From Powellomyces hirtus (taxonomy: Eukaryota; Chytridiomycota; Chytridiomycetes; Spizellomycetales; Powellomycetaceae): 64,000 nucleotides of DNA. Below, one piece after another: positions 15,685-48,184 of this stretch. Every line of letters begins with the position of its first letter. Within the stretch, counting starts at the first letter, position 1. Made by a program: the position numbers and the translations under genes. The stretch lies in the NCBI GenBank assembly GCA_025526995.1, contig JAHLKG010000001.1, positions 1,798,001 through 1,862,000 on the forward strand, read 5' to 3'. The notes beneath the pieces are model-generated. The model worked only from the letters and a program-made list of their open reading frames with translations. It was not told where the DNA came from and ran no database searches.

Positions 15685-18600
15685 ATGGCGGACACCTTAG
15701 AGGATGGAGATCAACATCTAGAAGATTGGGTCAGGGATAATCAGTATCGACTTCCTGATCCAGTGCGTCCACCTACCGTCAAGCGGGCAGATCCTTTGGA
15801 AGGACCTTCCTCTCCCAGGGGAGAACGTGCAGCCACTTTCACTGACAAGGGAAAGGCATCTGCATCTGATCCTAAACCCTCTGCACCCCTACCTGACAAA
15901 CGGCACGTCGCACATCCTGTTGGTGAACCCGAAGAAACTGACAATCCGTTGTCAGGTTCTGAGGGGGACCAGTTTGAACCAAGCAATCCCCAGGACACTG
16001 CTTCTGAGGGAGAACCTCCCCATTGGGCACTCCGCATGGCTAAGGACATCAACATCCTCAAAAAGGCTTTCAGTATCCAACGTGAAATCACTGACGGTTT
16101 TCGGGCAGCCCTCATTGAGACCCACAACTTTATTGAAACGGTCATGTCTCCTACAATGAGGGGCACTTCTCCAACTAAAGCGCCGGAGGAGGAACCTAAC
16201 CGTGCCATACAGCATGAGGGCAGCACTTATCCCTTAGCTAAGCCCATGCATTTGGCCCGTCCGCACAAACACCTTAGCGTTGTCAGCCCTACACCCTTAG
16301 CTGTACCCGCACCTATGTTTCGTGAAGAGACTACTAGACCTGCAAACCCGACGACTAGTAGCTATCTCGCCGATGTGGGTCCACCCCTGTCTACTGCAAG
16401 TCAGGATGACCCCAATGCCATCAAAGCTATGATCACTTCTCTCTACAAGAACCTGAAGAACTTCTCTAGACGCAACAACAGTGGCCAACCCGACTATCAG
16501 AGTCTCTTTGACTATATCCGTGCGTTCAACAACTATTTTTCAGTTGCCCAGCTTAGTGACGCCAACCAAGTACTTCTGCCTGTCTCTTCTCTGACTGGCG
16601 AAGCGGCTCAACGTTACCAATCCTACCAATTGGCAATGAATGCTGGCACCGAACCTTTGATTGCAACTTGGGAACAACTACAGACTTACCTCAAGAAAGC
16701 CCACTGCCCTATCGATCATCAGGACGTCATCCTTGAAAAGTTCTATAATCTTAAACAGGGGAAGCGCTCAGTGGATCAGCTTAACAAGGCATTTCTGAAT
16801 CTGCGGATCCAACTCCCTTGTCCTCTCACCTCTGAAGAAGAACGCAACTTCTACAAGAGGGCCCTTGATCCCCATTACCTTCTGTCAATCACGGCTGGCA
16901 ATACCGATCGTCAGCTTAGTCTGACCGAACTTCAAGCCACTGCCTTACGATTGGAGGCTTTAAACAAACGGATCAATCAGTCGGACTCATCATCTTCTTC
17001 AGCCCTTCAGTCTGGCAATAAGAAGAAACAGAAGTCATCTCCAGCTGCCAATACTGCACCTGTGCCGACTACCCCTTCTGTCCCAGCTCCTGCCACGGCT
17101 GAGTCTCCTAAGAAACCTTCTAAACGGGACGCTATTCCAGTCAAGGCAAATGTGACTTGTCCCTTTTGCTCTGCTACCGGCAAACACAACTATTGGGATT
17201 GCCCTAGAGCCACAGACCCCCAAAAGCAAGCCGAACGCAAAAAGCGCAAATTGGAATACCACCAGAAGCAACTGGCCTCCGCAAATGCTATGACGGCTAC
17301 TTCCTCAGGCCTTCTAGTTGCCTCTACCGCTCCCACCTTTGCCTTGGAAGATTCCGACTCTTCTAAAGCATTTAGAGCAGCCTCTAATGGCAAACTCAAA
17401 TGGGTGGTTGATTCCGGCGCCTCTGACCACATGTGCTATCAGGAATCCGCCTTCCTACACCTCAAGCCCATCACCCACACTGTGGAAGTGGCTAACGGTG
17501 TCATTGTTGACCCTACCGGCCTTGGAGACATTTCAGTGACATATCAAGGACATGGACTGATCATCCGGGACGTACTTTTTGTTCCATCCTTTCGCCACAA
17601 TCTACTCTCTGAGCCTACTTTGTCAAAGCAGGGAATCAATCTTTCTTTCAAGCCTACCCATTGTTCTATGGACCTACCAGACGGGATCTCTCTTACCATC
17701 CCCCGCACACCATCCGGTCAATTGCCCTTCACCTGCAAACTTAGAATGGCTGCACCGGCCTCCAGCTTGGCACTGGCTGTTGGAGCTCCCACTATCCTCT
17801 CTTTGGGAGACTATCTCCTTTGGCATGCTCGACTTGGTCATCCTTCCTATGACCGCTTTAAAGAGCTGGCCACCGCTTTACCTCTTCCCTTCAGTTTACC
17901 GCCTTCAGACACCATTCCTCTTTGTGCTGAATGTGCCGTCGGCAAGGGCCATAGAGTGGCCAAACCCAAAGTCAACCCCACCATCTATCCTGACGATTCC
18001 GGCCTGATCCACGTTGATCTCTTGGCCCGGTTTCAACTCCTTCTCTGTCAGGAGCTATCTATTGTCTGGTTATCCTTGACCAAGACACACGTTATTCCAA
18101 GAGCCACTTCTTAAAGGACAAGTAGGCCCATAACGTTCATACCTGCCTATTGGATTATGCTGCCCTTTACAAGACCCAACGTGGCTACCCTATCAAGCAA
18201 GCCCACGTGGATCAAGGCTCTGAATTCCTCAACGATGTAATTCAGGGTTGGAGTGCTTCCCAAGGCATCATCTGGACCACCACAGCTGCTTATTCTTCCT
18301 TCCAAAATCCGGTTGAACGTACTCATCGTACCCTTGCGGACATGGGACATACACTGCTCCCTGCAGCTCATTTCACTCTGGATTTCTGGGCTGAAGCTTG
18401 GAATATTGCAAACTATCTACGTAACCGTCTACCGGCCTGTGGATATACCAAGACACCTTTTGAAGCTTGGACCGGCATCAAACCTAAGCTGGACAATCTC
18501 AAACTCATTGGGTGCACTGCCTATGTAACCCCAGTTCCTATGAAGAACAAACTCCTTCCACGTTCATGGACTGGTGTTCTTGTTGGCTATGGCCTTTCCT

Positions 18601-20672
18601 CACCTACCTACCGTATTTGGAATCCGGCCACCTCTTGCATTGTGGAAACCCGCGACGTCTGCTTTGATGAATCTAAACTATTCTGGGATGCAGCTCTTTC
18701 CTTGGATCAACTCCAAGACTTCACAGTAGCCGACCTTCCCATTGACAATTCTACTGGAAATGACCTCCTCACGTCTGGCTCTGCCAGCAGCTCTTCTGAC
18801 GAATCTTCTTTATCTGAAGACAAGTATGAAGTGGAAAATATCATGCAGCATCGCCACCGTCGTGGCAAGCTCCAGTTCTACATCAAATGGAAAGGTTATC
18901 CGTCTTCTGACAACACTTGGGAAGATGAAGACCGGCTTGATCATTGTCATGAACTTCTCAATCAATACCTTGAGGACAATGACTTGGGCAACTCATCACG
19001 CACCCGACGCACCCATGCCTTCCAGACATCTACTGCTATGTCTGAAGCCACTCCTGTGCCTTGCGATTACAATGTACCCAATACTCTCAAGCAGGCCTTT
19101 GCTTCTCCTCACCGTGTCTCCTGGAAAGCTGCCATGCAAACCGAACTTGACTCATTGACCATTAACAACACCTGGTCAGTTGTTGACCGTCCAGCACCTC
19201 CCACCAACGTTGTGGATTCCCGCTGGGTCTTTGCACTCAAACCCAATTTGGACGGTACTATCAACAAATTCAAAGCTCGCATTGTAGCTAAGGGTTTTAC
19301 CCAACGCCATGGCCTGGACTACCAAGACACTTATGCTCCTGTTGTGGGCTGGCCGGCTCTGTGCCTCTTTCTTGCCTTATGTGCGCAGATGGGCCTAGAC
19401 GCTCATCAACTGGATGTAGTCACTGCCTATCTTAATGGGCTTATCGACTTTATCATCTACATGGAACTTCCACCTGGCCCATTACATTTTGCACACAAAG
19501 TGGCCTTACTCAACCAAAGTCTCTATGGTCTCAAACAAGCCGGTAAACTCTGGAACGATGACATCGATAGTTTCCTTACTACTGAACTTGGCTTTATGCC
19601 TTGTACCGGCAAACCTTGCCTCTACCACAAGCTGGTGGATGGACATCCTGTCTTCCTCGTTTTATATGTGGACGATATCATTGTGGCTGCCCCCCGCACT
19701 CAGCCTAACCTCCTCACGGATCTCAAGGCCAGTCTCTGCACCAAATATAAGATGACTGATGCGGGCAGGCTTTCATACATCTTGGGAATCCGGGTCACTT
19801 GACATCCTGACGGTTCTATCTCTTTGGATCAAGAACGTTACATCAAGGACTCCCTCACCCGATTTAACATGGCGGATTGCAATCCTTCTCACCTGCCCAT
19901 GGATCCCAACTTACGTTTATATGACATTGACGATGCTGGCCCTCCTATTGATGTCAAACTTTATCAGACTGCTATTGGCACTTTACTCTACGCTTCTGTC
20001 TGTACCCGCCCTGACATTGCTGCTTCAGTGGGCCTCCTAGCACGTCACGTCTCCTGTCCACGCAAAGCTCATTGGACAGCGGTTCAACGTATTCTCAAGT
20101 ATTTTCGGGGCACTTCACGTCTTGCTCTGACATACAAGGCATCCAATGCTACAGCTCTCCAATGCTATACGGATGCTGATTGGGCTTCTGATCACAATAC
20201 CCGCCATTCCACTTCCGGCTACTGTTTTCTCTTATCAGGAGCCGTCATCCATTGGCGTTCTACCAAGCAGACCTGCATTGCTCTCTCTTCTACTGAGTCT
20301 GAGTACATAGCTGCTGCTACTGCTGGGCAAGAAACTCTCTGGTTCTCACGTCTCATGGCCCAAATCCGTCCAGACCTTCCAAAGGCCCCAACTATTGTCC
20401 ATATGGACAGTGCTAGTGCACGTCTATTGGCTCACCGGGATACAAATTCCAGACCGCCAAACACATTGACATACGCTACCACGCCATTCGGGACTGGATT
20501 CATCAGGAAGAACTTATCCTACAACCAATTGCCGGCACAGACAACTTGGCTGACGTCTTCACTAAAGCCATTGGCAATCCATGATTCACAGCTTTTCGGG
20601 ATCAACTTGGACTATCTTTATTGTCTATCGCATGACTATATGGCAGTACCTACCTATCTGGGCCTTCCATAA
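15685..20672 (+). pseudogene. Copia-1 gag-pol, disrupted
   Basis: Translation probably starts at the ATG at 15685 (MADTLEDGDQHLEDW). Gag carries a zinc knuckle CPFCSATGKHNYWDC (Cys-x2-Cys-x5-His-x4-Cys, one residue longer than usual) near 17158. Protease has WVVDSGASDHM (17410). The integrase His/Cys region shows HARLGHPSYDRF and CAECAVGKGH; the core follows with VDQGSEFLN and NPVERTHRTL. A chromodomain lies at about 18815..18980. Reverse transcriptase has LYVDDIIVA near 19665, and RNase H has TDADWASDHNTRHSTSGY. Breaks: a frameshift near 18020, a TAG near 18124, a TGA at 19801 and a second frameshift near 20440. Gag and pol share one frame, as is usual in copia. Confidence 0.9.
18815..18980 (+). 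other. Chromodomain in copia-1 between integrase and RT
   Basis: The segment from DKYEVENIMQHR through LQFYIKWKGYPSSDNTWEDE has the chromodomain hallmarks: Y-V/E-V-E-x-I, aromatic FYIKWKGY, and xNTWE. These aromatic positions form the methyl-lysine cage in the family. A Ser-rich linker precedes it and the RT region follows. Confidence 0.85.
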
Positions 20673-22019: not shown

Positions 22020-22029
22020 GGAGGGGGCG
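22020..22029 (+). promoter_or_regulatory. Copia-1 polypurine tract
   Basis: GGAGGGGGCG abuts the 3' LTR and fits the plus-strand priming tract. Confidence 0.75.
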
Positions 22030-22524
22030 TGTTGGGATACCAAGGAGCTCTGGCCGGTCACTCAAAAGCCTTTATTCCTTTGCTTCTATTCTTCTACTTT
22101 GGACACTATTGTACTGTGCCATCCACGATTCTTTGGACGGTACATGGCTATTTTCATCACTCTGCTACCTACGAACTGTGCTATCTACACGACTTAACTG
22201 GCACACGGTTCCATGATTAATCCTCTACCACCACGCGTCTTTGGTGGCACGGTCCCCACTTGGTTCCCATTGTTCTCCTTGCATTGTGACATTAGGCCCC
22301 TTGCTTTCCTTTCATTTGCACGGCTCTTTCATTTCCCATTGTTCTAGAGCCGCTGCTGTCTTCACCCATTTTACCGCGGGCTCTTTACTCCCGCCCCTGC
22401 TCTGAGAGAGATTCATGAGAGACTTGTTATACTATTGGCAATACACTACCTTTTGCTCTTTGTTACTTGCACCTTTAAGCTTGGCCGTCTAAGCGGTTAC
22501 CCTCCAGCGCACCGACTTGCAACT
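22030..22524 (+). repeat. Copia-1 3' LTR
   Basis: 495 bp matching the 5' LTR with scattered substitutions and about 9 bp lost near 22372. It ends GACTTGCAACT. Confidence 0.9.
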
Positions 22525-25899: not shown

Positions 25900-28800
25900 T
25901 TGAGTGCACCTAGTTGGGTCTTCCGAGTAAAGATGGGTACCAAACCAATCATAGCCCCCCCAAATACCGGTTGCAACACTATGGTTGTTCAAGACCGTGT
26001 TGTTGACGAACGAGAACTTGAGAAAAGACCTCTCGACCTACCCTACAATATTGATACCGCTGGTGCCGGTCAAACAATTCGAATCATATCCCTGACAACT
26101 CATTTGATTCAAATCTTCAATAACTCTTTGCAAGACTACAATTCCGTCGCCTCCTTTCATTTTGAAATCGCATCTATTGGAATTCCGCTCATTTTAGGAT
26201 TACCATTCTTTGAAGCAATTGGTACTTTCACCTGTGTTACTGTCAAGCGACCACACCACATCTTGTTTACCTTGGATGGGAAAGCTTTCAACTGTTCATT
26301 GCTCCCATCCAAGCGACACGCTCAGAATCCTGATTCATTCATTCGGAAAGCTCAAACCTTTACGATCCACGGAGCCACCAAAGGGGTCAAACGCGAACAA
26401 CAGAAACCCTTCCAGGGTATCACCGCCGTCTCATTGAAGCGATTCAACACACAACCCTGACACAAACAATATTGGGAAGCACTCGCAGTTCATATACGTC
26501 CTGGTACCAAAGAGAACAAGGCTGAGCTGATTCGCCCTGGCGTAAATTCCTCAATTCAGTTCTTTGACAATTCGAGAATACACTCTTTATAGAAACCAAT
26601 AACTTACCCCCCAATCGCGGAGAAAATAACTTTCATATTGACATCATCCCCGGATCAAAACGGTATTCCATGCCCTACGCCCCATATCACAAAATCAACT
26701 GGGCAAACTCCGATAGCAACTCGATCACCTACTTTCAAAGGGATGGATACAACACTCTAAGTCCCCTTGGGGCGCTTCAGTTGTATTTGCTGTCAAGACA
26801 ACTGGCAGGATTTGCGTTTGTTGGGATTATTGCGGATTGAATGCCGTTACCATCAAGGACCGCACTCCGCTCTCCAATCTTTGAGAAATGTGTAACCAGC
26901 TTCTCGGCGCCCGCTTCTATACGCTCATTGACTAGAAAGATGCATACCATTGATTACTTATTGCTCCAGAGGATGGTGAGAAAACAGCCATCCATACAAG
27001 ATTTGGACTCTTTGAATATGGCGTCATGCCTTTTGGGCTCTGCAACGCACCTGGCACCTTCCTGCAACTGATGAATCAAGTCCTAGGCGACCTTTATGAT
27101 ATCTGCGTCATTTGCTATCTTGACGACATCCTCATCTTCTCAGCTAACCCCGATAAGCATCGCCAAGATGTGGCAGGGGTCCTTCAGCGACTACAAGACC
27201 ATTCCCTATACGTCAACGCTGCTAAATGCCATTGGGGCCAATGCAAAATCGAGTTTTGCGGGCATCTTTTTAGTGTCAATGGCATGCATATTGCTGATGA
27301 CAAGATTGCAGCCGTTCGAGATTGGCCGACCCCGCGGACCATGCAACACATCCGGCAATTTCATGGATTAACAAACTACTTCCTTGATTACATCGAACAA
27401 TATGCCAAGATTGCCGCACCATTATCAGCCTTACAAGGCATCAAGAGTGCATTTGAGTGGACAGCTAAGGAACAGAAGGCCTTCAATTCCCTCAAGACCG
27501 CTGTCACAAGCGCTCCAGTCCTCCCAACATTCAACCCAGACCATCCAATCTACACACACACCGATTCATCTGGCTATGTCATCTCCGGATGGTTAGGACA
27601 AACTGCTAATGGAGAACAGCTCCCCAGGCCATTACCGACTCATGGAGTACGAGCTATGGATCAATTTCCCAAGCTTCGTCCGGTACTCTTCTTCTCCCAT
27701 AAAATGAATGGAGCTGAGACATGATATCCGGTACACAAGCAAGAACTTCTAGTCCTTGTGAAATTCCTTGAAACAAACCCGTTCTATCTTATCAATCGGC
27801 CCTTCAGTTGAATCTCGGTGCGCTGGAGGGTAATCGCTTAGACTGCCAAGGTTAAAGGCGCAAGTAGCAAAGAGCAAAAGGTGGTGTATTGCTGATAGTA
27901 TAACAAGTCTCTCATAAATCTCTCTCAGAGCAGGGGCGGGAGTAAAGAGCTTCCGAGCTTAAGAGTAAAATGGGTGAAGACAGCAGCGGCTCTAGAACAA
28001 TGGGAAATGAAAGAGCCGTGCAAATGAAAGGAACGCAAGAGGCCTAATGTCACAATGCAAGGAGAACAATGGGAACCAAGTGGGGACCGTGCCACCAAAG
28101 ACGCATGGTGGTAGAGGATTAATCATGGAACCATGTGCCACTTAAGACGTGTGGGTGGCACAGGTCGTAGGTAGCAGAGTGATGAAAATAGCCATGTACC
28201 GTCCAAAGAATCGTGGATAGCACAGTATGATAGTGTACAAAGTAGAAGAATAGAAGCAAAGGAATAAAGGCTTCTGAGGGACCGGCCGGAGCTCCTTGGT
28301 ATTCCAATACCTTCATTGCTCTTGTCCATCATTGATCACTTGTGCACCTACAAATGCAACCACATTTGAGTCAATGCCAAGCGGGATGGGTCAAAACACT
28401 ACAAGAATTTAACTTCTCAATCCAATATCTTCCTGGTCGATTCAATACAATTGCCAACCTGCTCTCTTGAAATCCCACATATGCACCACGGTGCATCGAA
28501 TGTCAAAAACGACTGATGGTCACAGCATACATGAACGCTAATGAGCACCCATTCCCAACTACCTTCGGATTTGAAGAATGGAAACATGAATTGCTCCAAG
28601 ATGAATATGTGCTTCATATCACCAGAGTACTTGAGAAACCAGAATATGAGCGCCCAGGTCGATATCAAAGATTCCCCATACAATCCAATGGAATTATCAC
28701 ATACAAAGGCAAGCGACTTTACGTCCCTTATACTATCCGACCACACGTCCTTTAAGAATTGCATGACAAACTTCCTAATGGCAGACATCAAAGACCCTTA

Positions 28801-30540: not shown

Positions 30541-30590
30541 TGTTGGTCTGAGAGTATCTGGGTAGATAGTTGAGGAAGCTTTCAGGGTAG
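30541..30590 (-). repeat. Copia-2 3' LTR, piece A
   Basis: 50 bp beginning TGTTGGTCTGAGAG, identical to the start of the right copy at 53881. It ends GGGTAG where gypsy-3 inserted. Confidence 0.9.
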
Positions 30591-31024
30591 TGCAAAAGGG
30601 TCCTGGTCGGGTGAGGTTATAGACGCTATATACGCTATACGGCGCCTTGAGTACTGACGTGGCTTTTCAGTGAGTTCGGCTATGTGCCGGGGTGTGCTAG
30701 TACGCCTAGTGCTAAGGGCAAGAGTAGAAGTGCTGCTCTGTATGAATACCTCTATCCTTAGTACTAGACTACACGCCTCTGCATATAGACCTAGGAGAAT
30801 TGTCCTCCAGTGTACTGCAGTAACGGGGTGTATACAACTCTGTTCTTTCTCCGGGGGGACCCTGGGGTCCACCCGTTTATATACTCATGCGTTGCCATAG
30901 CAGAGAATGCGGCACCTGCCGTCCAGTCTCTATACATCTGGTATCACGCGCGAGGGTGATACAAAACACGTGTACTAAACTAACTAACTCTACTAAAGGA
31001 CCCTTAAATACCGTCCCTTTCACA
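30591..31024 (-). repeat. Gypsy-3 3' LTR
   Basis: 434 bp. The left end reads TGCAAAAGGG instead of TGTGAAAGGG, two changes in the terminal inverted repeat; the right end CCCTTTCACA is intact. Confidence 0.9.
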
Positions 31025-31040
31025 TCCTCCCCCCTTTTTG
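31025..31040 (-). promoter_or_regulatory. Gypsy-3 polypurine tract
   Basis: On the minus strand AAAAAGGGGGGGAGGA immediately precedes the 3' LTR. Confidence 0.8.
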
Positions 31041-31110
31041 ACCTTCTTGCAACCAAGTCTCACGTCTAGTCCCGTAAGAACCTTGTCAGCCGTAGTTCTT
31101 TAGCGCAGGC

Positions 31111-32793
31111 CTAAAAACGTTTCTTTCCACGTCTAGCTCTTCCAATTGCAGGCCGCTCCGTCAATTCCATTTCCTCAGGCTCGGGCCTAGGAGGAAAGAT
31201 GGTACTCCGGTTGATTTTGCGCGTCTTGGGGACGGGCTTCGGAAGTTGCATCGAGCCATCAGCTGCCGGAGTCTGGAGGCCACCAATCGGCCCATAACGT
31301 TCGAGGTCCTTCCATTGCCTGAGGCTGTACCCGGTGTCATGGGCTTTGTAAAACGTCTCTTGCTCGGATACGACTTGAGTGTACCGTTCCTCGCGGGGCA
31401 ATTCCAACCGAGTTACTTCATGCCGCATTCGTTCGAACCGGGCGATGACTAGGTCGCCCGGACGGGTACGCACCCTAATCTCTTGGTCGGGGAGAATGAG
31501 GTCTCCACCACGCCCGGGAGTGAAGTTACCGTGGACCGCCATGATAGCCCACTTGTGGTTGTTAACATCAAAGTGGGAGCCTGATATTGCATTGAAGTTG
31601 ATCGTCATGAGGTTTCCGGGTGCGTTGGGGGTGAGCATGGCATCGCGGATTTGTTTGGGGGCATCGGCAATCCGGCATCGCCAGTTCGTACTCTGCACGT
31701 TGTCTTTGATAGCTGCCATGCGTGCGTAGAGGCCACATTGCTCGTTCGCCATCTTGGCGTGGTCCCATAGGAAGAATCCGGCTGCTGCATTGTTGGGAAT
31801 GACGGGCAAGCATGACATTGAGCCCTGCGTGACCCAGGCTCCACCGTGGAGGATGGCGCCCGTTTTAGTGTCGCGGGCATTCTTCATGGCCATTCTAGTA
31901 TCCATCATCGTCGGGTTCGTGTAGTAGAGGCTGTCATAGACGCGGGTCATGTAGTCGTCCATGTGCTTGGTTGCGCCTACTGTGGGGTCTCTAATAAGGA
32001 ACAAGAGGGGTTCTCCATCCGTGTCTTCTATCCATGCGTTGCTGTCCACTAGGTAGAATTGCGGGTACTTGCGACGCTTCATGGGTGCAATCGCCTCTTT
32101 CTCGATTTGGCGTCGTTCATCAGCGGGTGGGGGACCCAGGAATCGTATGGCTTTGGGGGCGGCTATCGTGTCAAACCAGGTCGCAAATGCAGTTGACCAT
32201 TTCGGACGGTGCATTGCCATCCAGGCGGTGTCTCTTCGTCCAGTGGGGATGATTGTGGGTGCCGGCCACAGAAGCGGTGGTGGGGGCGAGAGGGTCACTG
32301 TGCCTACTCCGCCAGCTGAGCTCGTGGTTTGAATCCCGAGTTCTCTGAGGCGGTCACATACGGGGCAAAACCACTGTATGTATTCCAGGTCCTGTTCGTC
32401 AACGTCGATATCAACGCAAATCATGTGGAACCATTTCCGGTCGCAGTTCGGGTTGTCGCATTCAATCATTGGCCCAAACAGGTCCAGGTCTTCTATCCTG
32501 TTGCAGAAACAGAATCTGTTGTTGTGCAGGAAAGCCGGTCCGGTCATGTCAATGAGATCCTGTTCCAGCGGGGTTACGCCAGTGGACGTCCTGTTTCTTT
32601 CTCGCCGGGGGAGTCGCATGGAGGGCCCTGCTTGCACCGTAGTTTCAGCTAGGCCAGGGGATATGGAGCTTAGAGATGTTCTTGCTCTGAGAGTCGCGGC
32701 CCTGAGGCTTCTTTCGGTGCTTGTGAGGTATTGTGAGCTTCGGGCAATTGCACGGCTGCCTGTGCCTCCTCGGGGGCCGGTTGGTGCTGACAT
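31111..32793 (-). CDS. PHD finger + TET/JBP-like 2OG-Fe(II) dioxygenase, retroelement cargo
   Basis: Intact 560-codon frame, same strand as pol, between pol and the 3' LTR of gypsy-3. Residues about 93-146 form a PHD-type zinc finger: CFCNR, then MIECDNPNC, WFHMICV and WFCPVC supply a C4HC3 pattern, as in methyl-histone readers. The C-terminal half (about 290-510) carries SGSHFDVNNHK (His-x-Asp iron ligands), GGDLILPDQEIRV, RPGDLVIARF, MRHEV (third ligand) and EERYTQVV (the Arg expected to bind 2-oxoglutarate). This order and spacing resemble the TET/JBP oxygenases that oxidise 5-methylcytosine or thymine and are carried by KDZ transposons in mushrooms. Substrate is inferred; a generic prolyl-hydroxylase-like oxygenase is the alternative. 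The last residues are basic (GRARRGKKRF), possibly a nuclear signal. Its openness contrasts with the damaged pol. Confidence 0.7.
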   Translation of the reverse strand: MSAPTGPRGGTGSRAIARSSQYLTSTERSLRAATLRARTSLSSISPGLAETTVQAGPSMRLPRRERNRTSTGVTPLEQDLIDMTGPAFLHNNRFCFCNRIEDLDLFGPMIECDNPNCDRKWFHMICVDIDVDEQDLEYIQWFCPVCDRLRELGIQTTSSAGGVGTVTLSPPPPLLWPAPTIIPTGRRDTAWMAMHRPKWSTAFATWFDTIAAPKAIRFLGPPPADERRQIEKEAIAPMKRRKYPQFYLVDSNAWIEDTDGEPLLFLIRDPTVGATKHMDDYMTRVYDSLYYTNPTMMDTRMAMKNARDTKTGAILHGGAWVTQGSMSCLPVIPNNAAAGFFLWDHAKMANEQCGLYARMAAIKDNVQSTNWRCRIADAPKQIRDAMLTPNAPGNLMTINFNAISGSHFDVNNHKWAIMAVHGNFTPGRGGDLILPDQEIRVRTRPGDLVIARFERMRHEVTRLELPREERYTQVVSEQETFYKAHDTGYSLRQWKDLERYGPIGGLQTPAADGSMQLPKPVPKTRKINRSTIFPPRPEPEEMELTERPAIGRARRGKKRF

Positions 32794-33201
32794 TGGTTGT
32801 TGCTAAGTTTGGTGTTGTGTGGTTGACTAGGTTGCTACGCGTACGTGTAAGCGAGTCTTCTCTTTACTGCTGGAGGTGTTTGTGTGGGCAGGCTAGAGTG
32901 ATGCTTCTCCTTTTATCATCTGACTCTTAGGTCCCGGTCTATCGGTGTTTGGTTGTTTTGTCAGGTGCAATGGTCCGGCGTGTACAGCTTTTTCGTTTAT
33001 CGCTATCTCTCAGCCGCTGTTTTGGCCGCTATCGGCATCCTCTGCGGCCCATTGTTTGTGGACGTTGGCTTCTGTTACTCTCATTTGTCGTTTGTGTCCC
33101 GGTCATCACTAGGACTGGGAATTTAGCCGCTTGTTGTGGTCTGACGTTCGGAATCCTATTTTTGTGCCGTTCCCCCTCCCCCGTTTGGAAAAATGATGCC
33201 G

Positions 33202-35643
33202 TTACCCGCGTGGCCTGCAGGCAGGAACGGGCCGTGCTACCGTCATTTCGTAGACTTGTACGGCATCGGGGGCGCGTCGTAGGTTCTCCCGTGTTTCCCA
33301 GGTGTTGTGCTTTGCCGGCCAGTATTTCCACTTGACAAGGAACTCCCGACCATCGTTGGTGTCGCGGTGGTTGACGATCTTCTCAACCTCGTAAGCGTCT
33401 TCCTCCTCAATTCCGTCAATTTCATGGTCGGAATTTTCGTCTGGGTCAATTCCCCGTCGGGTTAGTTCTTGCGAAGTTCCATATGCTTTGGGCCTGAATG
33501 GTTTGCCGGTTAGCTTGTTGGCTGTCTCTGCGAGTTTGAGTTCCTCCTTGAGTGTTTCCTGCTGTGTTAGTGAGGGGATTTCGTCGGAATCGACAGGTCG
33601 CCTTTCAGTCCAATACCGCAGTCGGCGCACGTGGGCTTGGCGTAGGATGACTTCTGTAGGGCTGAGGGTTTCCAGTAGTCTGAAGGTTGGTCCGTTGCAG
33701 GATATAATGCGGTGAGGACCGGTCCATTTGACTGCCATTTTTTCCACCGCTGTTTCGTTTTCTTTCCGAGCGGACTTGGTAAATTGGGGTACGGCGAGCC
33801 AGACTTTGTCTCCAATGTGGAAACCGTAGTCCTTCATATGGGAGACCCTGTCATACCAGGTCTTCTGTGTCTTCTGGACGCTCCTAATGTTTTCCCTTGC
33901 TAGCGCCCAGGCTTTTTGTAGTCGGAGTTGTGTCTCCGCTCTGTAGTCACGCATCTCGATGACCGTTGGTGCTTCATCCAGGTTGTCAGTGGGCGTGTTT
34001 GTTTGATGTAGTAAGTCCTTTGGTAGCCGGGGATCTCGTCCGAACATGAGGAAGAAAGGGGACTCATGTGTGGATTGGTGCATTGCCGTGCGGTAAGCAA
34101 GCAAGTTGTATGGCAATTGCGTGTCCCAATCGTCGTGTGAGTACTTGTTCACGTACGTTTGCAGCATTCTTACTAGGGTGCCATTGAACCTTTCTGTTAA
34201 GCCGTCAGCCTCTGGGTGGTACGGCGAGGTGAAGGCGGGGTGCGTCCCAAGCAAACTCAGGATTCGATGTTGCAAGTCACTGATAAAGGGTTGCCCTCTG
34301 TCAGTGACGATACTTTCTGGTATGCCGAAGCGACAGAATACATCCTCTACGAGCCATCTTGACACGCGGTTTGCTGTGATGTCGGGGACTGCAAACGCTT
34401 CGACCCATTTAGTCATGTAGTCTGTCAGTACGATGATGTAGTTGTTGCCTCTTGCTGTTGTCGGCAACTTCCCAACGATGTCTATACCGATCTTCTCCCA
34501 TGGGTCGTTGACGGCAATTGGTGTTAATGGTCCGACTCGGTTCTTTAGTAATGGTTTGTGTTCTGAGCATTCCGCACATGACTTGACGTGGTTGACGACG
34601 TCTGAGTGCCAACCTGGCCACCAATAAGACTCTTGCACTTTCTGAAGAGTTCTGTCTCTCCCTAGGTGCCCGGCTAGTAAGTCATCGTGGCATGACTCAA
34701 TCGCTTTACGTCGTAGGCCGTCTGGGACCAGTAGTTGTTGAAAGATGCGTGGTCGGAATCCTGTTTTGTCAAATCGGTGAATTCGGTAGAGTATGTCTTC
34801 AAGTAGGATAAGGCGGTGCGCTGTCTTCCTGATGTTGTCTTGCTGTTCCTTGGTACCATCGAGTGTTCCATTAACAAGGAACTGGTAGGCAGCAGCGAAG
34901 TCTTTGTCTCTTTGCTGCTGTTGCGGGATGTCATCAGCAAGCTTCTGGACTAACGGAACACTTGTCGTCAGAAACGCCTCCTTGTCTGGCTCCTCTTTGT
35001 TGTAGGATAACACTACCACCCCACTTGCGGTTTCAGTAGCGGTCTGCTCGGTTTGAGTGGAAATCGTACGGGATTTAGGTGGGTCATCATGAAGGCGCGA
35101 CAAAAAGTCCGGTGTCCTATGAGCCAGGGATTTTCCAGGTTTGTGCACCATTTTGAAGTCGTAATCGGCTAAGGCATAGCTCCAGCGGGCCCATTTCCCT
35201 GATAAGTCGCCATTCTTTCGTAGCGGCAGCAGAGGCGAGTGATCACTTTCCACCGTGAAGTCGTTGCCCCATAGGTAAGAGTCGAGGGTTTGAATAGCCC
35301 AGACGACTGCTAATCCTTCTCGTTCTGTGTTAGAGTAGCGAGTCTCGGGGTCTGTCAGGGACTTATTTAAAAATGCCATTGGAATTCTCGCATTGTCTTT
35401 AATCTTATACAGCGCTGCTCCTAGTCCTTGCTTACTTGCATCGATGGAGAGTACCATGGGTGTGTCCTTCTCTGGGAACTCCAGTATAGCTGCCTCTTTT
35501 ATTGCCGTCTTCAGTTCGTCGAAAGCGCTTTGCTCTTCAGCCGTCCATCGCCATTGGACATCTTGTTTCGTCAATTCATACAACGGTCGCGCGATGGTAC
35601 CATAGTTTTCAATGTGTTTGTGATGGAAGACGCACATACCCAA
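33202..35643 (-). CDS. Gypsy-3 RNase H - integrase - chromodomain
   Basis: 813 codons open. RNase H: LSIDASKQGLGAALY and TVESDHSPLLPL. Integrase zinc region: HDDLLAGHLGRDRT with CAECSEHK. Catalytic D-D-E: GIDIVGKLPTT, ESIVTDRGQPFIS and HPEADGLTERFNG. The C-terminus has a GPHRI-type domain and a chromodomain (DAYEVEKIVNHR ... FLVKWKYWPAKHNTWE, about 33230..33410). Integrase-linked chromodomains direct chromoviruses to heterochromatin. The frame enters from the RT part through a disruption near 35650. Confidence 0.9.
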   Translation of the reverse strand: MGMCVFHHKHIENYGTIARPLYELTKQDVQWRWTAEEQSAFDELKTAIKEAAILEFPEKDTPMVLSIDASKQGLGAALYKIKDNARIPMAFLNKSLTDPETRYSNTEREGLAVVWAIQTLDSYLWGNDFTVESDHSPLLPLRKNGDLSGKWARWSYALADYDFKMVHKPGKSLAHRTPDFLSRLHDDPPKSRTISTQTEQTATETASGVVVLSYNKEEPDKEAFLTTSVPLVQKLADDIPQQQQRDKDFAAAYQFLVNGTLDGTKEQQDNIRKTAHRLILLEDILYRIHRFDKTGFRPRIFQQLLVPDGLRRKAIESCHDDLLAGHLGRDRTLQKVQESYWWPGWHSDVVNHVKSCAECSEHKPLLKNRVGPLTPIAVNDPWEKIGIDIVGKLPTTARGNNYIIVLTDYMTKWVEAFAVPDITANRVSRWLVEDVFCRFGIPESIVTDRGQPFISDLQHRILSLLGTHPAFTSPYHPEADGLTERFNGTLVRMLQTYVNKYSHDDWDTQLPYNLLAYRTAMHQSTHESPFFLMFGRDPRLPKDLLHQTNTPTDNLDEAPTVIEMRDYRAETQLRLQKAWALARENIRSVQKTQKTWYDRVSHMKDYGFHIGDKVWLAVPQFTKSARKENETAVEKMAVKWTGPHRIISCNGPTFRLLETLSPTEVILRQAHVRRLRYWTERRPVDSDEIPSLTQQETLKEELKLAETANKLTGKPFRPKAYGTSQELTRRGIDPDENSDHEIDGIEEEDAYEVEKIVNHRDTNDGREFLVKWKYWPAKHNTWETRENLRRAPDAVQVYEMTVARPVPACRPRG

Positions 35644-35658
35644 AAAGGTTTGTACATC

Positions 35659-37382
35659 CTATACGGTTTTCGGAACGCCGATGGCTTGTATCCCGTCGAC
35701 TTTTGCTGGGTCTACTGCTACGCCGCGGCCATTGACAATCTTCCCCAGGAACTTCAATTTGCCCTGTGCAAAGTGGCATTTCTCCAGCTTAATCCTCAGT
35801 CCAGCGTCGACTATCCGTTCTAACACACGGCTTATGTGCACCAGGTGTTCCTGGAATGTGTCAGAGTATATGATGATGTCGTCCACGTAGACTAGGCAGA
35901 ATTGGTATTTCAGGCCGGCCAACACGGCATCCATAACTCGTTGAAATGTCGGAGGGGAGTTCTTCAAGCCGAAGGGAAGTTTGTTGTATTCAAATAGTGC
36001 GTGCGGCGTGCAGAATGCCGTGTAGTGTTTGTGTTCTTCCTTGATGGTGGCAAATCCCCAGCGTAGGTCCATTGTTGTGAAGTATCGTTTCCCTGCCAGG
36101 TAGTCGATAGTGGAGTCGACTCGGGGTAGCGGATACCTGTCTGGAATGGTGTGTTCGTTTAATTCTCAATAGTCGGTGACGAACCGTAGCCCTCCGCCTG
36201 GTTTCTTGACTAATGAAACCGGGGCTGCCCATGGCGATCGGGATGGTCGGATGACGTTGTCCTTCAGCATGGTGTTCACGTGGTCTCTGAGTAGTTCCTC
36301 TTTCACCATTCCAGCTCGCCTTGGGGGGTAACTGATCGCCGGGTTCCTCCCATGATGGCCATGTGGTGTTCGTATGGAATGTTTGGTTTTGCGGGGATTT
36401 TAGGGTCGAATGCTTCAGCATGGCGCATTAGTGTTTGCTTGAGCATGGCTTGTTCGGTTGGGTCGAGGTGGGGTAGTTCCAATGCTTCTAGTACTTCCTT
36501 TCCTGATGTGTGAGCCTGCTCGTAAGACTGTCCGTCTTCTGATGGGGTGGCCGGTTCGGGAAGGCTGTCGGTGGTATGTAGGCCTTTTTGTGCATCTTTT
36601 CCCCATGCAGCTAATTCTCCAATCTCTTCTTGCCCTAAACCTTCTCCTTGGCCGGTGTCTTTATACGGTCTCTTCTGGTTTGGTCGTATGGGTTTGTTGT
36701 ACCTGGTTTTGTGGGTTTCCCCCTCTGCGTTTATGATGAACACAGTTTTCCGGGTCGTCCTCTCCTTTGGGCGTGGTGGAGAGCGGCTTGTAGGTCGTGG
36801 TAGTCCTCGTTGGGGAGTTTCTGGTAGTAGGTCCTGTTGCATCAGCGAGTCGTTCAAACCGTTGGGTTCCGTAAGATGCACTTCCGGTACTTTCTCTGTG
36901 GCGAAGTCACGGTCTTCAGAGTCAACCCATCCAAGTAATTGTCCTTTCCTTAGCTTCCTTCCATGACTTGTAAGGTTGGCAACCGGGGTGAGCCATGTAC
37001 CGTCCCAGTGCGGTTTTACGAGCTGGTTGGGGCACCAAATACCATTGCTCTGCATGCTCTTACTGCCGGTGACCAGGTAGTATTCATTGGGGCTCATCTC
37101 TTGCTCAGGTCTAGCGGCGACATGCGTGACGTGGTGGGCAGGCAGATGTACTTCTTCCTCGGCAACGTATACGGGAACGCGAATGCTACCATAGTGGCGG
37201 CTCCCGTCTGTCGTGTATTGCCCAAATGCAGTTTTCATGGGTGTCTTTTTACGTGGTCCGTCTGGTTTACTTTCATATTCCAGTTGGTCGAACTCGAGGT
37301 CCAGTTTGGTTTTGTATTCCTTCAGGCCTGGTATCCCTATGAGTACTGGTCGGCCGAGGCCTGGGACAATGCTGAATCTCAT
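35659..37382 (-). pseudogene. Gypsy-3 protease tail, linker and reverse transcriptase, disrupted
   Basis: 36303..37382 continues the protease (FSIVPGLGRPVLIGIPGL) and a long Pro/Lys-rich linker. A frame change near 36330 leads into RT: RSPWAAPVSLVKKPGGG, an in-frame TGA within DYxELNEH near 36163, then LPFGLKNSPPTFQ and LVYVDDIIIYS. The RT frame stops near 35659. At least two frame changes and one stop lie between the intact flanking frames; they may be post-insertion damage. Confidence 0.85.
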
Positions 37383-39019
37383 GTTCCGTGGTTGGCTTCC
37401 ATGAACGCCAATTTCGAGGTCGAGGTAAACATGTCCGGTCGCTTTGCCAGAACCAATTCCGCTTGGAGTACCTTCAGGAAGCTGTCTGACATGCAGTTGA
37501 TGGTGGCGGCCGTGTCCGCAATTAGACCATCCATTTCGACTCCGTTGATTTTGCCATAGATCTGTGCCACCGTGAACATTGCATGTTTGAGGTCGTCTTC
37601 TGCATGGGCGGGTGTCTCATTTTCCATGTCTGCCTCGGCAACATAAGCTTCAGCTGAGGCTTGCCCTTTGTTCATTGTTTCTGCTTGTGCGGAAGCCTTC
37701 TCAACTTCCACAATCCATGTAGTTTCGTCATACCGTTTGTGCCATCCGTGCGGGCGGTGGCCGAATAATTCTCTTCGTCCATTCTCATATGCTAGTGACC
37801 GGTTGAGGAAGCTTCCCGTGACAGGAGTGTCATCTAATTCGGTATAGAATAATGAAGTCAGTGGTAGCTCATCAGTTCCTCTGAGTCGCCATGCTGCTTT
37901 GATAATTCCGTCTCTGTCTGTTGGGCATGCCCGAGGCTTCGGCGCGTCGAAACCGATCTTCTTGCTGCTTCTTGGATGTGTAACTGCTTCTGCAGCAGCA
38001 CTCTCCCCCCTTTTTGTGGTGGGTCGTGCTAGGATTGCACCGGGGGCAAATGTGGGAGAAGGTGTGCAGTTTGTGGTGAAGAACACCTCCGCGGTGTTGG
38101 CCGGGGTTGTGTCTCGAATTTCGATGATCTCATTGAAGGGGATGCGCATTCCTTGCGTTATTCCTGCGTAGCGGTCCTCAGGTGGTATGTGAGGAATGGT
38201 GCGTGGTCCATGACGGTTTTGGGACCACGCACGCTTGAGTTCAGTTATGAACCGTTGTTGAGTTTTGACTTTGCCAGATATTCGCCACGCGGCGGTGTAT
38301 GGCCATGGTGGTTTGTTGACGATGCCAGAGCCATCAGCTCGGGCACCTTGTCGGGCGAAAAGTTCACGGGAATGCTTGAGCAATTTTGGGTAGTCGACGC
38401 ACATTCCGAGCAATTGTTGATACCAGAGGGAGTTTTTCCATACCGGTGTAATGAGGGTCATGGTGGCTCTGTCGGCACTGACTTTGGCGAGAACCTGCAG
38501 TATGAGTTCCCACGGTGGGTTAGCCCAGCAATTCTCGGTACTCCAGTCATGCGTAAACGCATTTCGGCATACTGCTGAGGGGTCAGCGTATGCAATTGTG
38601 CAGTAGCGGTAGATCAGACGGTTCTGTTTTGTGGCAAACAGATCAATCGTATGGCCTTGAGGTCCTCCCCACCGTCCCATGTTGAGTTGGGCAAAAACGT
38701 CGGGATGTAATTGCCAGTCGTTTCGGTCGTAGGAGGCAATGTAAACTTCAGACATAAGGAACTTGTTCTCGGAACACGCCGTGTTTGTTTTTTCGGTTGT
38801 TAACTCAGGCGCCAGGCACTTGTTCTCCTCAGACGTCGTGTTTGGGTTTTCTACTTTTTTCGTTGTTTTGTCAGTGGTTAGTGTGTCGACAGACACAGGG
38901 TGGAGCGTGGGCGGCGTAGGAGTGTGACGGCGTTCGGGTGTCCCAATGTCGTTATTCTCGAATGCGGCATCGTTCTGAATGTCGTCTGACCATTTCGCCG
39001 CTGGACCCAGGCGGTCCAC
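37379..39019 (-). CDS. Gypsy-3 second frame: DAM-like/DIRS-type domain plus protease
   Basis: 546 codons; the frame is open a further 70 nt upstream inside the gag 3' end (in the -1 frame), so it is probably reached by frameshifting rather than from the GTG at 39019. Residues about 98-215 read WQLHPDVFAQL, IDLFATKQNRLIY, DPSAVCRNAFTHDWS, CWANPPWELILQVL and MTLITPVWKNSLWY. This is the pattern of the methyltransferase-like (DAM) domain of DIRS retrotransposons, with NPPW at the place of the N6-adenine methylase DPPY/NPPF motif. The C-terminus is the retropepsin, MDGLIADTAATINCMSDSF, with DTA in place of DTG. The DAM-like domain upstream of protease is unusual for Ty3/gypsy. Confidence 0.7.
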   Translation of the reverse strand: MDRLGPAAKWSDDIQNDAAFENNDIGTPERRHTPTPPTLHPVSVDTLTTDKTTKKVENPNTTSEENKCLAPELTTEKTNTACSENKFLMSEVYIASYDRNDWQLHPDVFAQLNMGRWGGPQGHTIDLFATKQNRLIYRYCTIAYADPSAVCRNAFTHDWSTENCWANPPWELILQVLAKVSADRATMTLITPVWKNSLWYQQLLGMCVDYPKLLKHSRELFARQGARADGSGIVNKPPWPYTAAWRISGKVKTQQRFITELKRAWSQNRHGPRTIPHIPPEDRYAGITQGMRIPFNEIIEIRDTTPANTAEVFFTTNCTPSPTFAPGAILARPTTKRGESAAAEAVTHPRSSKKIGFDAPKPRACPTDRDGIIKAAWRLRGTDELPLTSLFYTELDDTPVTGSFLNRSLAYENGRRELFGHRPHGWHKRYDETTWIVEVEKASAQAETMNKGQASAEAYVAEADMENETPAHAEDDLKHAMFTVAQIYGKINGVEMDGLIADTAATINCMSDSFLKVLQAELVLAKRPDMFTSTSKLAFMEANHGT

Positions 39020-39021
39020 TA

Positions 39022-40599
39022 GGTCCGGGGAGCAAAATCCTTCCGTGGGTGCGGGCAGCTTTGAGCGAAGTGCCCCGTATCACCGCAGTTGTAGCATTTG
39101 CCAGCGGAGTTCGTTACCCCATTCGGTTCGGCGGGAGCTGCAATCTGAGGCAGAGTAGGGGTTGTCGAAGGCTTTTGCGCTTGCAACAATTGACCCAGTA
39201 AGGCTGTCATCTGCTGCAAGGTTTCTTCCATGGACGGTTTCGGCTGTTGGTGCTGGTGGCTGTTGAGATGTGGCGGTTGCGCAGTGGCAGTGTACGGTTG
39301 AGTTTGGGGTCTGCTCCATGCTCCTCCTTGGCGCCAGGCGTCCTCCCTCCGGTATGGTTGTTCCTCGCGGCGATAGGGCTGCTGGGTCCGCCGTCTGTCC
39401 ATGAGAAACACCTCTATGTCTTCGTGTTCCTCCTGCGTTAATGCCATTGCTGACTCAACATCTTCTGCAAGGAAGATTCTTTTGCCAGGATTCTTACGGC
39501 TGGCGCTGGTTAGGCGGAGTTCCTGTTTAATCGAGGCCAATTCCTTCCCTAGGGATGCTGTCGTCTCTTGCGCGGCTGACCAGGCTGCTTCTTCGGCAAT
39601 CTTCTTGAGGTCTGATTCTTGGATGCGTCCGCGAGAAGACAAATCTCCGTCATCCATTCCTTGTTCATATCGTTCATAGACCTTGTTGACTAGGTCGTCA
39701 AACGTGACGGTAGCTTCGTCCCAGCGATTGCCCTTGACTAGGATGGACTTCATGGACGGTTTCTGATGACCTTCTAGGAAAGCGTACTTCTTTTCTTGGT
39801 CATTCAATTGCGATACTGTGGGTAGTGCTTTGTTCAAGGACCGAAGCCGAATGGCAAAAGCTCTAGATGTTTCCCGCAGTTTCTTTTTGAGCGTAAGTAC
39901 TGCCATGCGTCGGTCCATGCTTGTCTGCTTGGTGCCGAACCATGCAATGAGTGCTTTGAGGAATTCGTCAAATGTTTCGTAGCGGTCAACTTCCGAATAG
40001 AGCCAGGTGAGGGCGGTGCCAGTGAATTGCTTGTTAGAGAGGTACTTGAGAGCATCGTCCCGATTGGTAAGGTGGCCTTGGCGCACTGCCATTTCTACTT
40101 CTCCCCGCAGGCGGGAGCAGAATTCTTGTACATCCACATCTTTGCCGTCCAGTTTCTCGTTGTCCGGTTATTCTAGTGTCCAGAGGGCTTGGGAGAGATC
40201 TCTCATGAAGCTCTGGTTGTGTACGGGTTGTGCCATACTGATGGACTCGGTGTAGAAGACAAACTGCTCGTTTACGTCGTTGTTCGGGAATTCGAGGTGT
40301 CAGGCGGGTGTGTGGAAGGTTTCGGTTTCTTCCTCGTTGGTTGCGGTCTGTCTAGCGGGCGTGCTAGGAGGTTGGTTTGGCTGCTCTTGAGCCAGGAAGT
40401 CTCCGGGTGATTTGTGGTGCGTTGTCGGCCGTTCGGTGGCCAATGATCTTGCTTTGCGCTGCAATTCGGATGCGGCAGTAGGTAGGCCCTTCTTGGGCTT
40501 CCGTGGTGCTCGGTTAAGAGCGTCTGAGGTCTTAGCCTGTGTAGATGCTCGGAGGGAGCGGGTGAATGCTGAATGCTCCAGGTTGGAGTCGGGCCGCAC
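39022..40599 (-). pseudogene. Gypsy-3 gag, disrupted at the N-terminal part
   Basis: The main frame 39019..40137 encodes capsid (LTWLYSEVDRYETFDEFL, WFGTKQTSMDRRMAVLTLK) and a zinc knuckle CYNCGDTGHFAQSC. It also has a QPYRREEQPYRRED repeat. The upstream part (40300..40599, RAPRKPKKGLPTAASEL) is in another frame and a stop lies near 40170, so gag is broken in at least two places or starts at 40137. Confidence 0.75.
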
Positions 40600-40696
40600 T
40601 TGAAGCGGGATGGTGTATACGTTTCCAGAGATGTCGTCGGCTTCCTGCTATGACTTCTTCTCTTTTAACGTGTGAGTCTGCACTTCTTTCTCGGCT

Positions 40697-40705
40697 GAGC
40701 CCCCA
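40697..40705 (-). promoter_or_regulatory. Gypsy-3 primer-binding site, tRNA-Pro-like
   Basis: On the minus strand, two bases after the 5' LTR, TGGGGGCTC is complementary to ...GAGCCCCCA, the 3' end of many eukaryotic tRNA-Pro molecules. Only nine bases match clearly, so this is tentative. Confidence 0.5.
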
Positions 40706-40707
40706 AA

Positions 40708-41141
40708 TGTGAAAGGGTCCTGGTCGGGTGAGGTTATAGACGCTATATACGCTATACGGCGCCTTGAGTACCGACGTGGCTTTTCAGTGAGTTCGGCTAT
40801 GTGCCGGGGTGTGCTAGTACGCCTAGAGCTAAGGGCAAGAGTAGAAGTGCTGCTCTGTATGAATACCTTTATCCTTAGTACTAGACTACACGCCTCTGCA
40901 TATAGACCTAGGAGAATTGTCCTCCAGTGTACCGCAGTAACGGGGTGTATACAACTCTGTTCTTTCTCCGGGAGGACCCTGGGGTCCACCCGTTTATATA
41001 CTCATGCGTTGCCATAGCAGAGAATGCGGCGCCTGCCATCCAGTCTCTATACATCTGGTATCACGCGCGAGGGTGATACAAAACACGTGTACTAAACTAA
41101 CTAACTCTACTAAAGGACCCTTAAATACCGTCCCTTTCACA
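40708..41141 (-). repeat. Gypsy-3 5' LTR
   Basis: 434 bp with perfect 10-bp inverted ends TGTGAAAGGG and CCCTTTCACA. GTAG follows at 41142 as the target duplication. Confidence 0.95.
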
Positions 41142-41145
41142 GTAG

Positions 41146-47121: not shown

Positions 47122-47179
47122 ATAGTGAGCTGTACCGTAAATTACAAGAGAGATGCTACTGGAGGTAGAGGACATTATA

Positions 47180-47970
47180 GTGCGAGATTCCGGCATCGTT
47201 GGACGATGGCCGGAGGCTGTTGGACAGCATGCCTCGCTGGACGAGATGCCGGCATCGTTGGACGATGGCCGAAGGCTGCTGGGCAGCATACCTCACTGGG
47301 TGAGATGCCGGGATCGCTGGGCGATGAGCCGACGGCTTGCCGATGCAAGGTGACCGGCACCAGATTTGCATGGCGGCGTACCTCGAGACCTGCGGGGACC
47401 ATGGCCGTGGTACATACCTACGCGAAGGGGAAGAGAAGGGCTTCGGCCAAGATACCGGCATCGTTTGACGATGGGCCGAAGGCCGCTGGGCGGCATACCT
47501 CACTGGGTGAGAAGGGTGATGCTGGGCATCGACCGGCTGCCGATGCAAGGTGACCGGCACCAGATTTGCATGGCAGCGTACCTCGAGACCCGCGGGGACC
47601 ATGGCCGTAGTACATACCCACGCGAAGGGGAAGAGAAGGGCTTTGGCCAAGATACCGGCATCGTTTGACGATGGGCCGAAGGTCGCTGGGCAACATACCT
47701 CGCTGGGCGAGATGCCGGGATCGCTGGGTGATGAGCCGAAGACTGCAAGGCAGTAGACCTCACGATGTGAGATGCCGGCATCGTTTGACGATGGGCCGAA
47801 GGTCGCTGGGCGACATACCTTGCTGGGCGAGATGCCGGGATCGCTGGGCGATGAGCCGAAGACTGGGAGGCAGTAGACCTCACTAGGTGAGATACCGGCA
47901 TCGTTGGACGATGGCCGGGGAACCGCTGGGCGGTCTTCCCAACGGGGAAGTGTGATGCAGGGCATCTACC
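47180..47970. repeat. Tandem repeat array of about 60-bp units in gypsy-4
   Basis: At least eight units begin GAGATGCCGG(C/G)ATCG and continue TTGGACGATGGCCGAAGG or GCTGGGCGATGAGCCGAAG. A longer unit of about 190 bp, containing GCATGGC(G/A)GCGTACCTCGAG, is itself repeated (47346.. and 47549..). It lies between pol and the antisense gene. Open frames seen across it on both strands are by-products of the period. Confidence 0.85.
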
Positions 47971-48184
47971 ATGAGCACCATAGCCGGGAGGAAGCCGAGT
48001 GACATTGGACACAGCGGACGCATACGAAATGCTATAAGGCTCAAGGGAGCACAGCGATGAGAAGGCAAGTACAGCGATGAGATTGTGGTACTGAATTTGA
48101 TTATACGGGCCGAAGGCCAGGCCCCAAAGGAGCAACAGACAACAAGTGAAAGTATGTACAAGAAGGAGGGGGGGGGAGAACTAA
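47971..48184. other. Gypsy-4 spacer between repeat array and antisense gene
   Basis: About 210 bp holding no recognised feature; it should include the 3' end signals of the antisense gene. Confidence 0.4.

Follow-up and report, generated by a model that had tools for sequence, protein, structure and literature searches.

The 64,000-nucleotide stretch of the Powellomyces hirtus genome analyzed in this work (hereafter, the window) harbors, at positions 30591-41141 of the minus strand, a single Ty3/gypsy chromovirus of 10.55 kb in which an additional gene occupies the position of env. The product of this gene joins a PHD finger to a C-terminal half that is indicated to be a divergent TET/JBP-like dioxygenase (Table 1). 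A first-pass annotation of this DNA had placed here an intact 560-codon sense open reading frame (ORF) between pol and the 3' long terminal repeat (LTR); indeed, the open frame lies between that LTR and the ORF coding for the integrase (INT) and the chromodomain (33202-35643), that is, in the same place as env of retroviruses. The Pfam domains scoring above cut-off in the element (CCHC, RNase H, H2C2, rve, and Chromo) follow the chromovirus order; the Pfam scan of the element ORFs gave no protease match, and the DTAA stretch, which from its motif we take to be protease-like, was seen by eye only. The two LTRs (30595-31024 vs. 40712-41141) show 7 mismatches over 430 aligned columns, and, where the 3' LTR meets the flanking DNA, 2 of its final 4 bases are unlike those of the 5' LTR. 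The same annotation had described the ORF as intact and pol as damaged. This is correct for the window copy, since two stops interrupt the YVDD-bearing frame of the reverse transcriptase (RT) region (35601-36400 inspected), but it does not extend to many other copies in the genome, in which the PHD-dioxygenase ORF carries stops; much of the family thus appears to have decayed.

Table 1. Features of the chromovirus (positions in the window) and the basis of each assignment.
Feature	Position	Strand	Basis
Target-site duplication GTAG, left copy	30587..30590		Sequence
3' LTR, 434 bp, minus-strand start TGTGAAAGGG	30591..31024	-	LTR alignment
Putative polypurine tract directly preceding the 3' LTR	31025..31039	-	Sequence; function inferred
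PHD + TET/JBP-like dioxygenase ORF, 560 codons, open	31111..32793	-	ORF, Pfam, alignment, dN/dS
Conserved part of predicted dioxygenase domain, ~residues 286-475	31369..31938	-	Alignment, profiles, Foldseek; fold predicted
R470, predicted 2-oxoglutarate-binding Arg	31384..31386	-	Alignment
H458, predicted third Fe(II) ligand	31420..31422	-	Alignment
HxD, H407 + D409, predicted Fe(II) ligands	31567..31575	-	Alignment
PHD finger, ING-like, residues 95-146	32356..32511	-	Pfam, profile and PDB comparison
408-bp spacer, INT-chromodomain ORF to PHD-dioxygenase ORF	32794..33201	-	Copy comparison
RNase H, integrase (H2C2 + core), chromodomain ORF	33202..35643	-	Pfam
RT region with YVDD, stops in YVDD frame	35644..36302	-	Read by eye
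pol frame without Pfam match	36303..37382	-	ORF, Pfam
ORF with Dam-like domain, protease-like DTAA stretch at its end	37379..39019	-	ORF, Pfam
gag with CCHC zinc knuckle	39019..40137	-	Pfam
Putative primer-binding site TTTGGGGGCTCAGCC, just after the 5' LTR	40693..40707	-	Sequence
5' LTR, 434 bp, minus-strand end CCCTTTCACA	40708..41141	-	LTR alignment
Target-site duplication GTAG, right copy	41142..41145		Sequence

The C4HC3 PHD finger that had been read in the N-terminal part of the protein is recognized by Pfam PF00628 above its cut-off (E 1.4e-5, 25.4 bits vs. 24). The closest solved structures in the PDB are the fingers of ING5, ING4, YNG2, and ING3 (best E 1.4e-9), and the three-protein family profile matches ING-type fingers with an E value of 1.6e-11; judging from its C4HC3 ligands and from this closest similarity, the finger is of the ING type. 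Residues M109, D113, and W121 are identical to the aligned ING residues and F94 stands opposite a Tyr, at positions that we take to be the pocket of ING proteins for trimethylated lysine 4 of histone H3 (H3K4me3); the likely target of a finger of this type would be histone tails methylated at H3K4. Both outside relatives of the protein keep the zinc ligands unchanged, and all eight are retained in each of the 8 genome copies spanning the finger, with W121 replaced by a stop in three near-identical copies.

As to the C-terminal half, the letters of the claimed dioxygenase signature are found in the protein, and the HxD...H iron triad together with the C-terminal Arg is invariant in the window ORF and the two outside relatives (3/3). 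In the genome, HxD is kept in 6/7 copies, the last His in 8/9, and the Arg in 7/8 having a residue at this position. A joint profile, built from the ORF family and two TET-like sequences that this genome also contains, retrieved Naegleria TET1 (NgTET1) with an E value of 1.2e-4, the His, Asp, Gly, PGD, and last His columns being in register; hhalign, run with controls, aligned the ORF family with a second TET-like family of the same genome (L034) at E 6e-5, with the Arg of the dioxygenase in register with that of L034. Foldseek searches pointed in the same direction: NgTET1/CcTET occupy ranks 1-13 of one list and the TET family accounts for 13 of the first 16 matches of the other, although these E values are not significant and confidence in the predicted models is low (mean pLDDT, the predicted local distance difference test score, 31.4 and 33.5). 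NgTET1, CcTET, and CMD1 are the best joint-profile and Foldseek matches to this half, but they share with it only about 11-16% identity over low-confidence alignments and have other N-terminal parts. Two results limit the assignment of the domain to this family. The profile of the ORF's own family alone found no known TET/JBP member, and the curated Pfam Tet_JBP cut-off was not reached, the window protein giving no match and protein P0001 scoring 12.9 vs. 34.9 bits. Hence, of the expected Pfam pair, the PHD finger was found above cut-off and Tet_JBP was not. That cut-off is a detection threshold rather than a defining trait of TET/JBP enzymes, and in P0001 Tet_JBP (E 0.064) is the sole match beyond the PHD finger; because the cut-off is missed, we use the name "TET/JBP-like". 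On the whole, the joint profile, hhalign, and the Foldseek ranking of low-confidence models support the TET/JBP-like identity first proposed and indicate a divergent dioxygenase of this kind.

Alternatively, the domain might be a 2-oxoglutarate dioxygenase whose substrate is RNA or protein. The fold is unproven, prolyl hydroxylases are among the weaker Foldseek matches, and the same element superfamily offers a precedent in the Ty3/gypsy elements of the orchid Phalaenopsis, whose extra ORF codes for an AlkB acting on RNA N6-methyladenine (m6A) (PMC9289625). On the other hand, no AlkB-type Pfam match appeared, either with the whole protein (E up to 1) or with pieces of it (E up to 10), and DNA-acting TET enzymes come first in each of the Foldseek lists and in the search with the joint profile, so that we regard this possibility as quite improbable. 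The sole phage match of P0001, Synechococcus phage ACG-2014g 19425-19610 (E 4), is labeled "DNA endonuclease", as is phrog_2297, the best PHROG of the window piece (0.089); the shared label is probably due to chance.

The search of the genome (29.26 Mb in 60 contigs, written here C1, C4, and so on) revealed at least 41 matches to relatives of the ORF, clustered into at least 25 places. Neighbors were counted for 19 of 25 places, each with about 1.5 kb of flank: an LTR lies downstream in sense in 15, an INT-chromodomain region upstream in sense in 9, and both in 7. These 7 places correspond to 5 independent cases, because the two C4 copies share 98-99% identity with each other and with the C35 copy, an identity extending just beyond the LTR. 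In diverged copies, too, the ORF sits after the same pol and before the same LTR. The possibility that the ORF occurred only once and apart from this element, which was to have told against the first proposal, is not what we observed: sense INT upstream and/or an LTR downstream accompany it at 17 of the 19 places, and one of the two places with neither has an antisense INT. The C11 copy retains gag, the Dam-like ORF, the RT region, RNase H-INT, the dioxygenase part, and the LTR, with DNA 94-99% identical, and is devoid of the PHD part and of the end of the chromodomain ORF. Four C28 places (7.6-23.6 kb) and two C8 places (384.9-392.4 kb) are copies of one unit made up of the dioxygenase part and the LTR, spaced 6.64 kb except for the last C28 interval (1.8 kb); in these units (L009-L014, L032), the catalytic residues are changed and no PHD match exists. 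The spacer preceding the ORF contains short blocks ahead of the ATG that are conserved in two near-identical C4 copies, and it is possible that it represents a leader, promoter, or splice region.

The comparison of the window ORF with its copies by the Nei-Gojobori method, with bootstrap bounds, yielded ratios of nonsynonymous to synonymous substitution rates (dN/dS) of 0.10-0.30 in 16 comparisons (11 independent lineages), with upper bounds not exceeding 0.57, these estimates being rough in distant pairs, where dS is near or above 1. The RNase H-INT-chromodomain region gave 0.13-0.18 (9 comparisons, 8 computable). Thus, the PHD-dioxygenase ORF is shown to be under purifying selection, with a constraint similar to that of pol, and the hint of selection in the first-pass annotation is borne out. 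Neutral decay of dead copies should raise the ratio rather than lower it; moreover, the occurrence of the same ORF at no fewer than 25 places, together with purifying selection, implies that the ORF is not a chance one. The idea of a passenger, i.e., a captured fragment of a host gene without function, may appeal to the stops in many copies and to the other TET-like sequences of the host, but it is already disfavored by dN/dS of 0.10-0.30 between copies whose dS approaches or exceeds 1, and related PHD-dioxygenase proteins are present on two Joint Genome Institute (JGI) contigs; we consider it extremely improbable. Only a little more credit, in our opinion, can be given to the idea that the PHD finger is the selected part, guiding integration or cDNA to H3K4-methylated promoters, with a secondary dioxygenase. 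This idea agrees with the ING-like finger and the pocket residues retained in the window copy, with the eight zinc ligands retained in all 8 copies covering the finger, and with the PHD fingers of Ginger1 transposases (PMC2836005). However, dN/dS is equally low in copies with the dioxygenase half only (L004, 0.25; L009, 0.21; L015, 0.13; L016, 0.14), and the catalytic residues are retained in most copies.

The host genome contains chitin synthase and radial-spoke families, which point to a likely zoosporic fungus. It also has 14 rows of matches to C5 DNA methyltransferases, one of them with a BAH domain (C11:76-78 kb), and 7 rows of MT-A70 matches. The observed/expected CpG value is 0.89 in the element, 1.05-1.20 in five presumed host-gene regions, 0.58 in a copia element, and 1.00 in another gypsy element. 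When transitions were polarized in the window and C11 copies using a C4 copy as the outgroup, C-to-T/G-to-A changes affected 24 of 396 CpG vs. 24 of 1516 other C/G site-lineages (binomial p 6e-6); the raised CpG transitions and the BAH-type methyltransferase fit the presence of 5-methylcytosine (5mC) on repeats, although they are no proof of it. It appears probable to us that the extra gene of this chromovirus combines an ING-type PHD finger, a likely reader of H3K4 methylation, with a TET/JBP-like dioxygenase that would likely oxidize 5mC of the element and thereby counter silencing. According to this model, the protein would be produced from the element, the PHD finger would dock it on the chromatin of copies that are transcribed or have just integrated, and the dioxygenase would oxidize 5mC at the docked copies; these might then be read as unmethylated, or might lose the mark through repair or replication, weakening host silencing.

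The integrase chromodomain and the Dam-like domain are further chromatin- or DNA-modification parts of the same element. Pfam Dam-like (PF05869) matches residues 98-201 of the ORF 37379-39019 (about 38417-38728) with an E value of 1.8e-5, but the score of 24.9 bits does not reach the cut-off (28.1). In three copies, the dN/dS of this stretch is 0.07-0.10 (upper bound 0.55 in the nearest copy), which suggests constraint; the window domain has the NPPW motif, whereas 2 of the 3 copies have it altered. One may ask whether the dioxygenase makes a protective or labeling mark instead, i.e., hypermodified bases (oxidized 5mC or methyladenine), alone or with the Dam-like domain, as phage TET/JBP enzymes do. 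Such a role would be in agreement with the low dN/dS of the Dam-like domain, with the MT-A70 families of the host, and with the activity of CcTET on both 5mC and N6-methyladenine (6mA) and the use of phage TET enzymes in hypermodification (PMC12730594). Nevertheless, the five ORFs scanned contain no glycosyltransferase or other tailoring domain, the CcTET 6mA pair Gly331/Asp337 is unmatched when counting without gaps, and the altered NPPW in two Dam copies also speaks against it; we judge it unlikely. A broader reading, in which the element would possess its own epigenetic toolkit acting on its own copies (a Dam-like writer of base methylation, a TET-like rewriter guided by the PHD finger as H3K4-methyl reader, and the integrase chromodomain as a second chromatin reader), can be put forward only tentatively, and we deem it doubtful.

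The fungal TET-carrying elements reported by Kojima in 2025 are KDZ, PHISTA, ESTA, hAT7, IS3EU, EnSpm, Plavaka, and Helitron (PMC12730594), in a main text that never uses the term PHD; in that survey, TET genes reside on DNA transposons only, and their absence from retrotransposons is explained by copy number. Those elements likewise are mobile and multi-copy, with a divergent TET/JBP gene and a proposed escape from methylation-based silencing, but they rely on a DNA transposase or a Helitron replicase, whereas the window element has LTRs, gag, an integrase, and a dioxygenase with a fused PHD finger. No TET-carrying retrotransposon was present among the literature matches listed, which largely leave subscription papers uncovered, and the window element is a clear candidate for an exception to the DNA-transposon-only distribution. 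If this is true, an LTR element carrying a TET gene under selection would contradict the reported absence and provide a testable anti-silencing device; moreover, a natural fusion between a PHD finger of the H3K4-methyl-reader type and a TET-like domain would lend itself directly as a model of targeted DNA demethylation.

Other retroelements share single traits with it. The orchid elements also are Ty3/gypsy with an extra 2-oxoglutarate dioxygenase ORF, but they belong to a different family of the superfamily and code for an AlkB-family enzyme with shown m6A RNA demethylation and no reported PHD finger (PMC9289625). The DNMT3 gypsy of Klebsormidium nitens and the DNA methyltransferase (DNMT) elements of Symbiodinium also carry an enzyme that modifies DNA and is subject to purifying selection (Ka/Ks < 0.2 there), but in these the writer lies inside the pol ORF, whereas an oxidizing enzyme in a separate ORF is found here (PMC5890265); if the proposed activity is true, an oxidizing enzyme is added to retrotransposons known for cytosine-methylation writers. 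DIRS retrotransposons likewise have the Pfam Dam-like domain in a polyprotein, located in pol and accompanied by a tyrosine recombinase, whereas the window element, which has a DDE integrase, carries it between gag and RT (PMC3783388). A 2019 paper assigns DAM domains to DIRS and DCM domains to Ty3/gypsy and DIRS, and then discusses as one group the elements from the two clades that encode DAM and DCM (PMC6338049). We claim no novelty for the presence of a Dam-like domain in Ty3 elements.

Additional methyltransferase and TET-like sequences were observed in the genome. On C30 (L045, 814-2907), a Dam-like domain (5e-5) and a C5 cytosine methyltransferase (3.2e-36) are united in a 698-amino-acid (aa) ORF, which is followed by a second long ORF; related 736-aa frames with a C5 match occur at C13:797.8-798.6 kb and C50:20.5-21.3 kb (L039, L040), and these three might possibly be mobile or viral genes. 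A second repeated TET-like ORF is found at L033, L034, L035, and L036 (C23, C6, C1, and C26), open and 414 aa long in L034 (Tet_JBP 9.2e-4). It adjoins a divergently oriented ORF without a Pfam match in L033, L034, and L036, and in L035 it is located on the 5' side of a gypsy gag-like ORF; this family is perhaps a TET-carrying DNA transposon. One more TET-like sequence (L037, C3:1363 kb) is distributed over several frames and is perhaps a host gene with introns.

Elsewhere in the window, two Ty1/copia-type pol ORFs (RVT_2) occupy 18150-19802 on the plus strand and 49987-51381 on the minus strand, each with a Pfam chromodomain between the end of the integrase and the RT (E 1.2e-17 and 1.9e-8). 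An inverted repeat pair (22029-22524 and 27806-28310) has arms of 346 + 145 bp, 95% + 92% complementary, and about 5.3-5.6 kb apart. Lastly, the overlapping ORFs at 47156-48135 on the minus strand are built of repeated short peptides, and perhaps represent a tandem-repeat array rather than genes.
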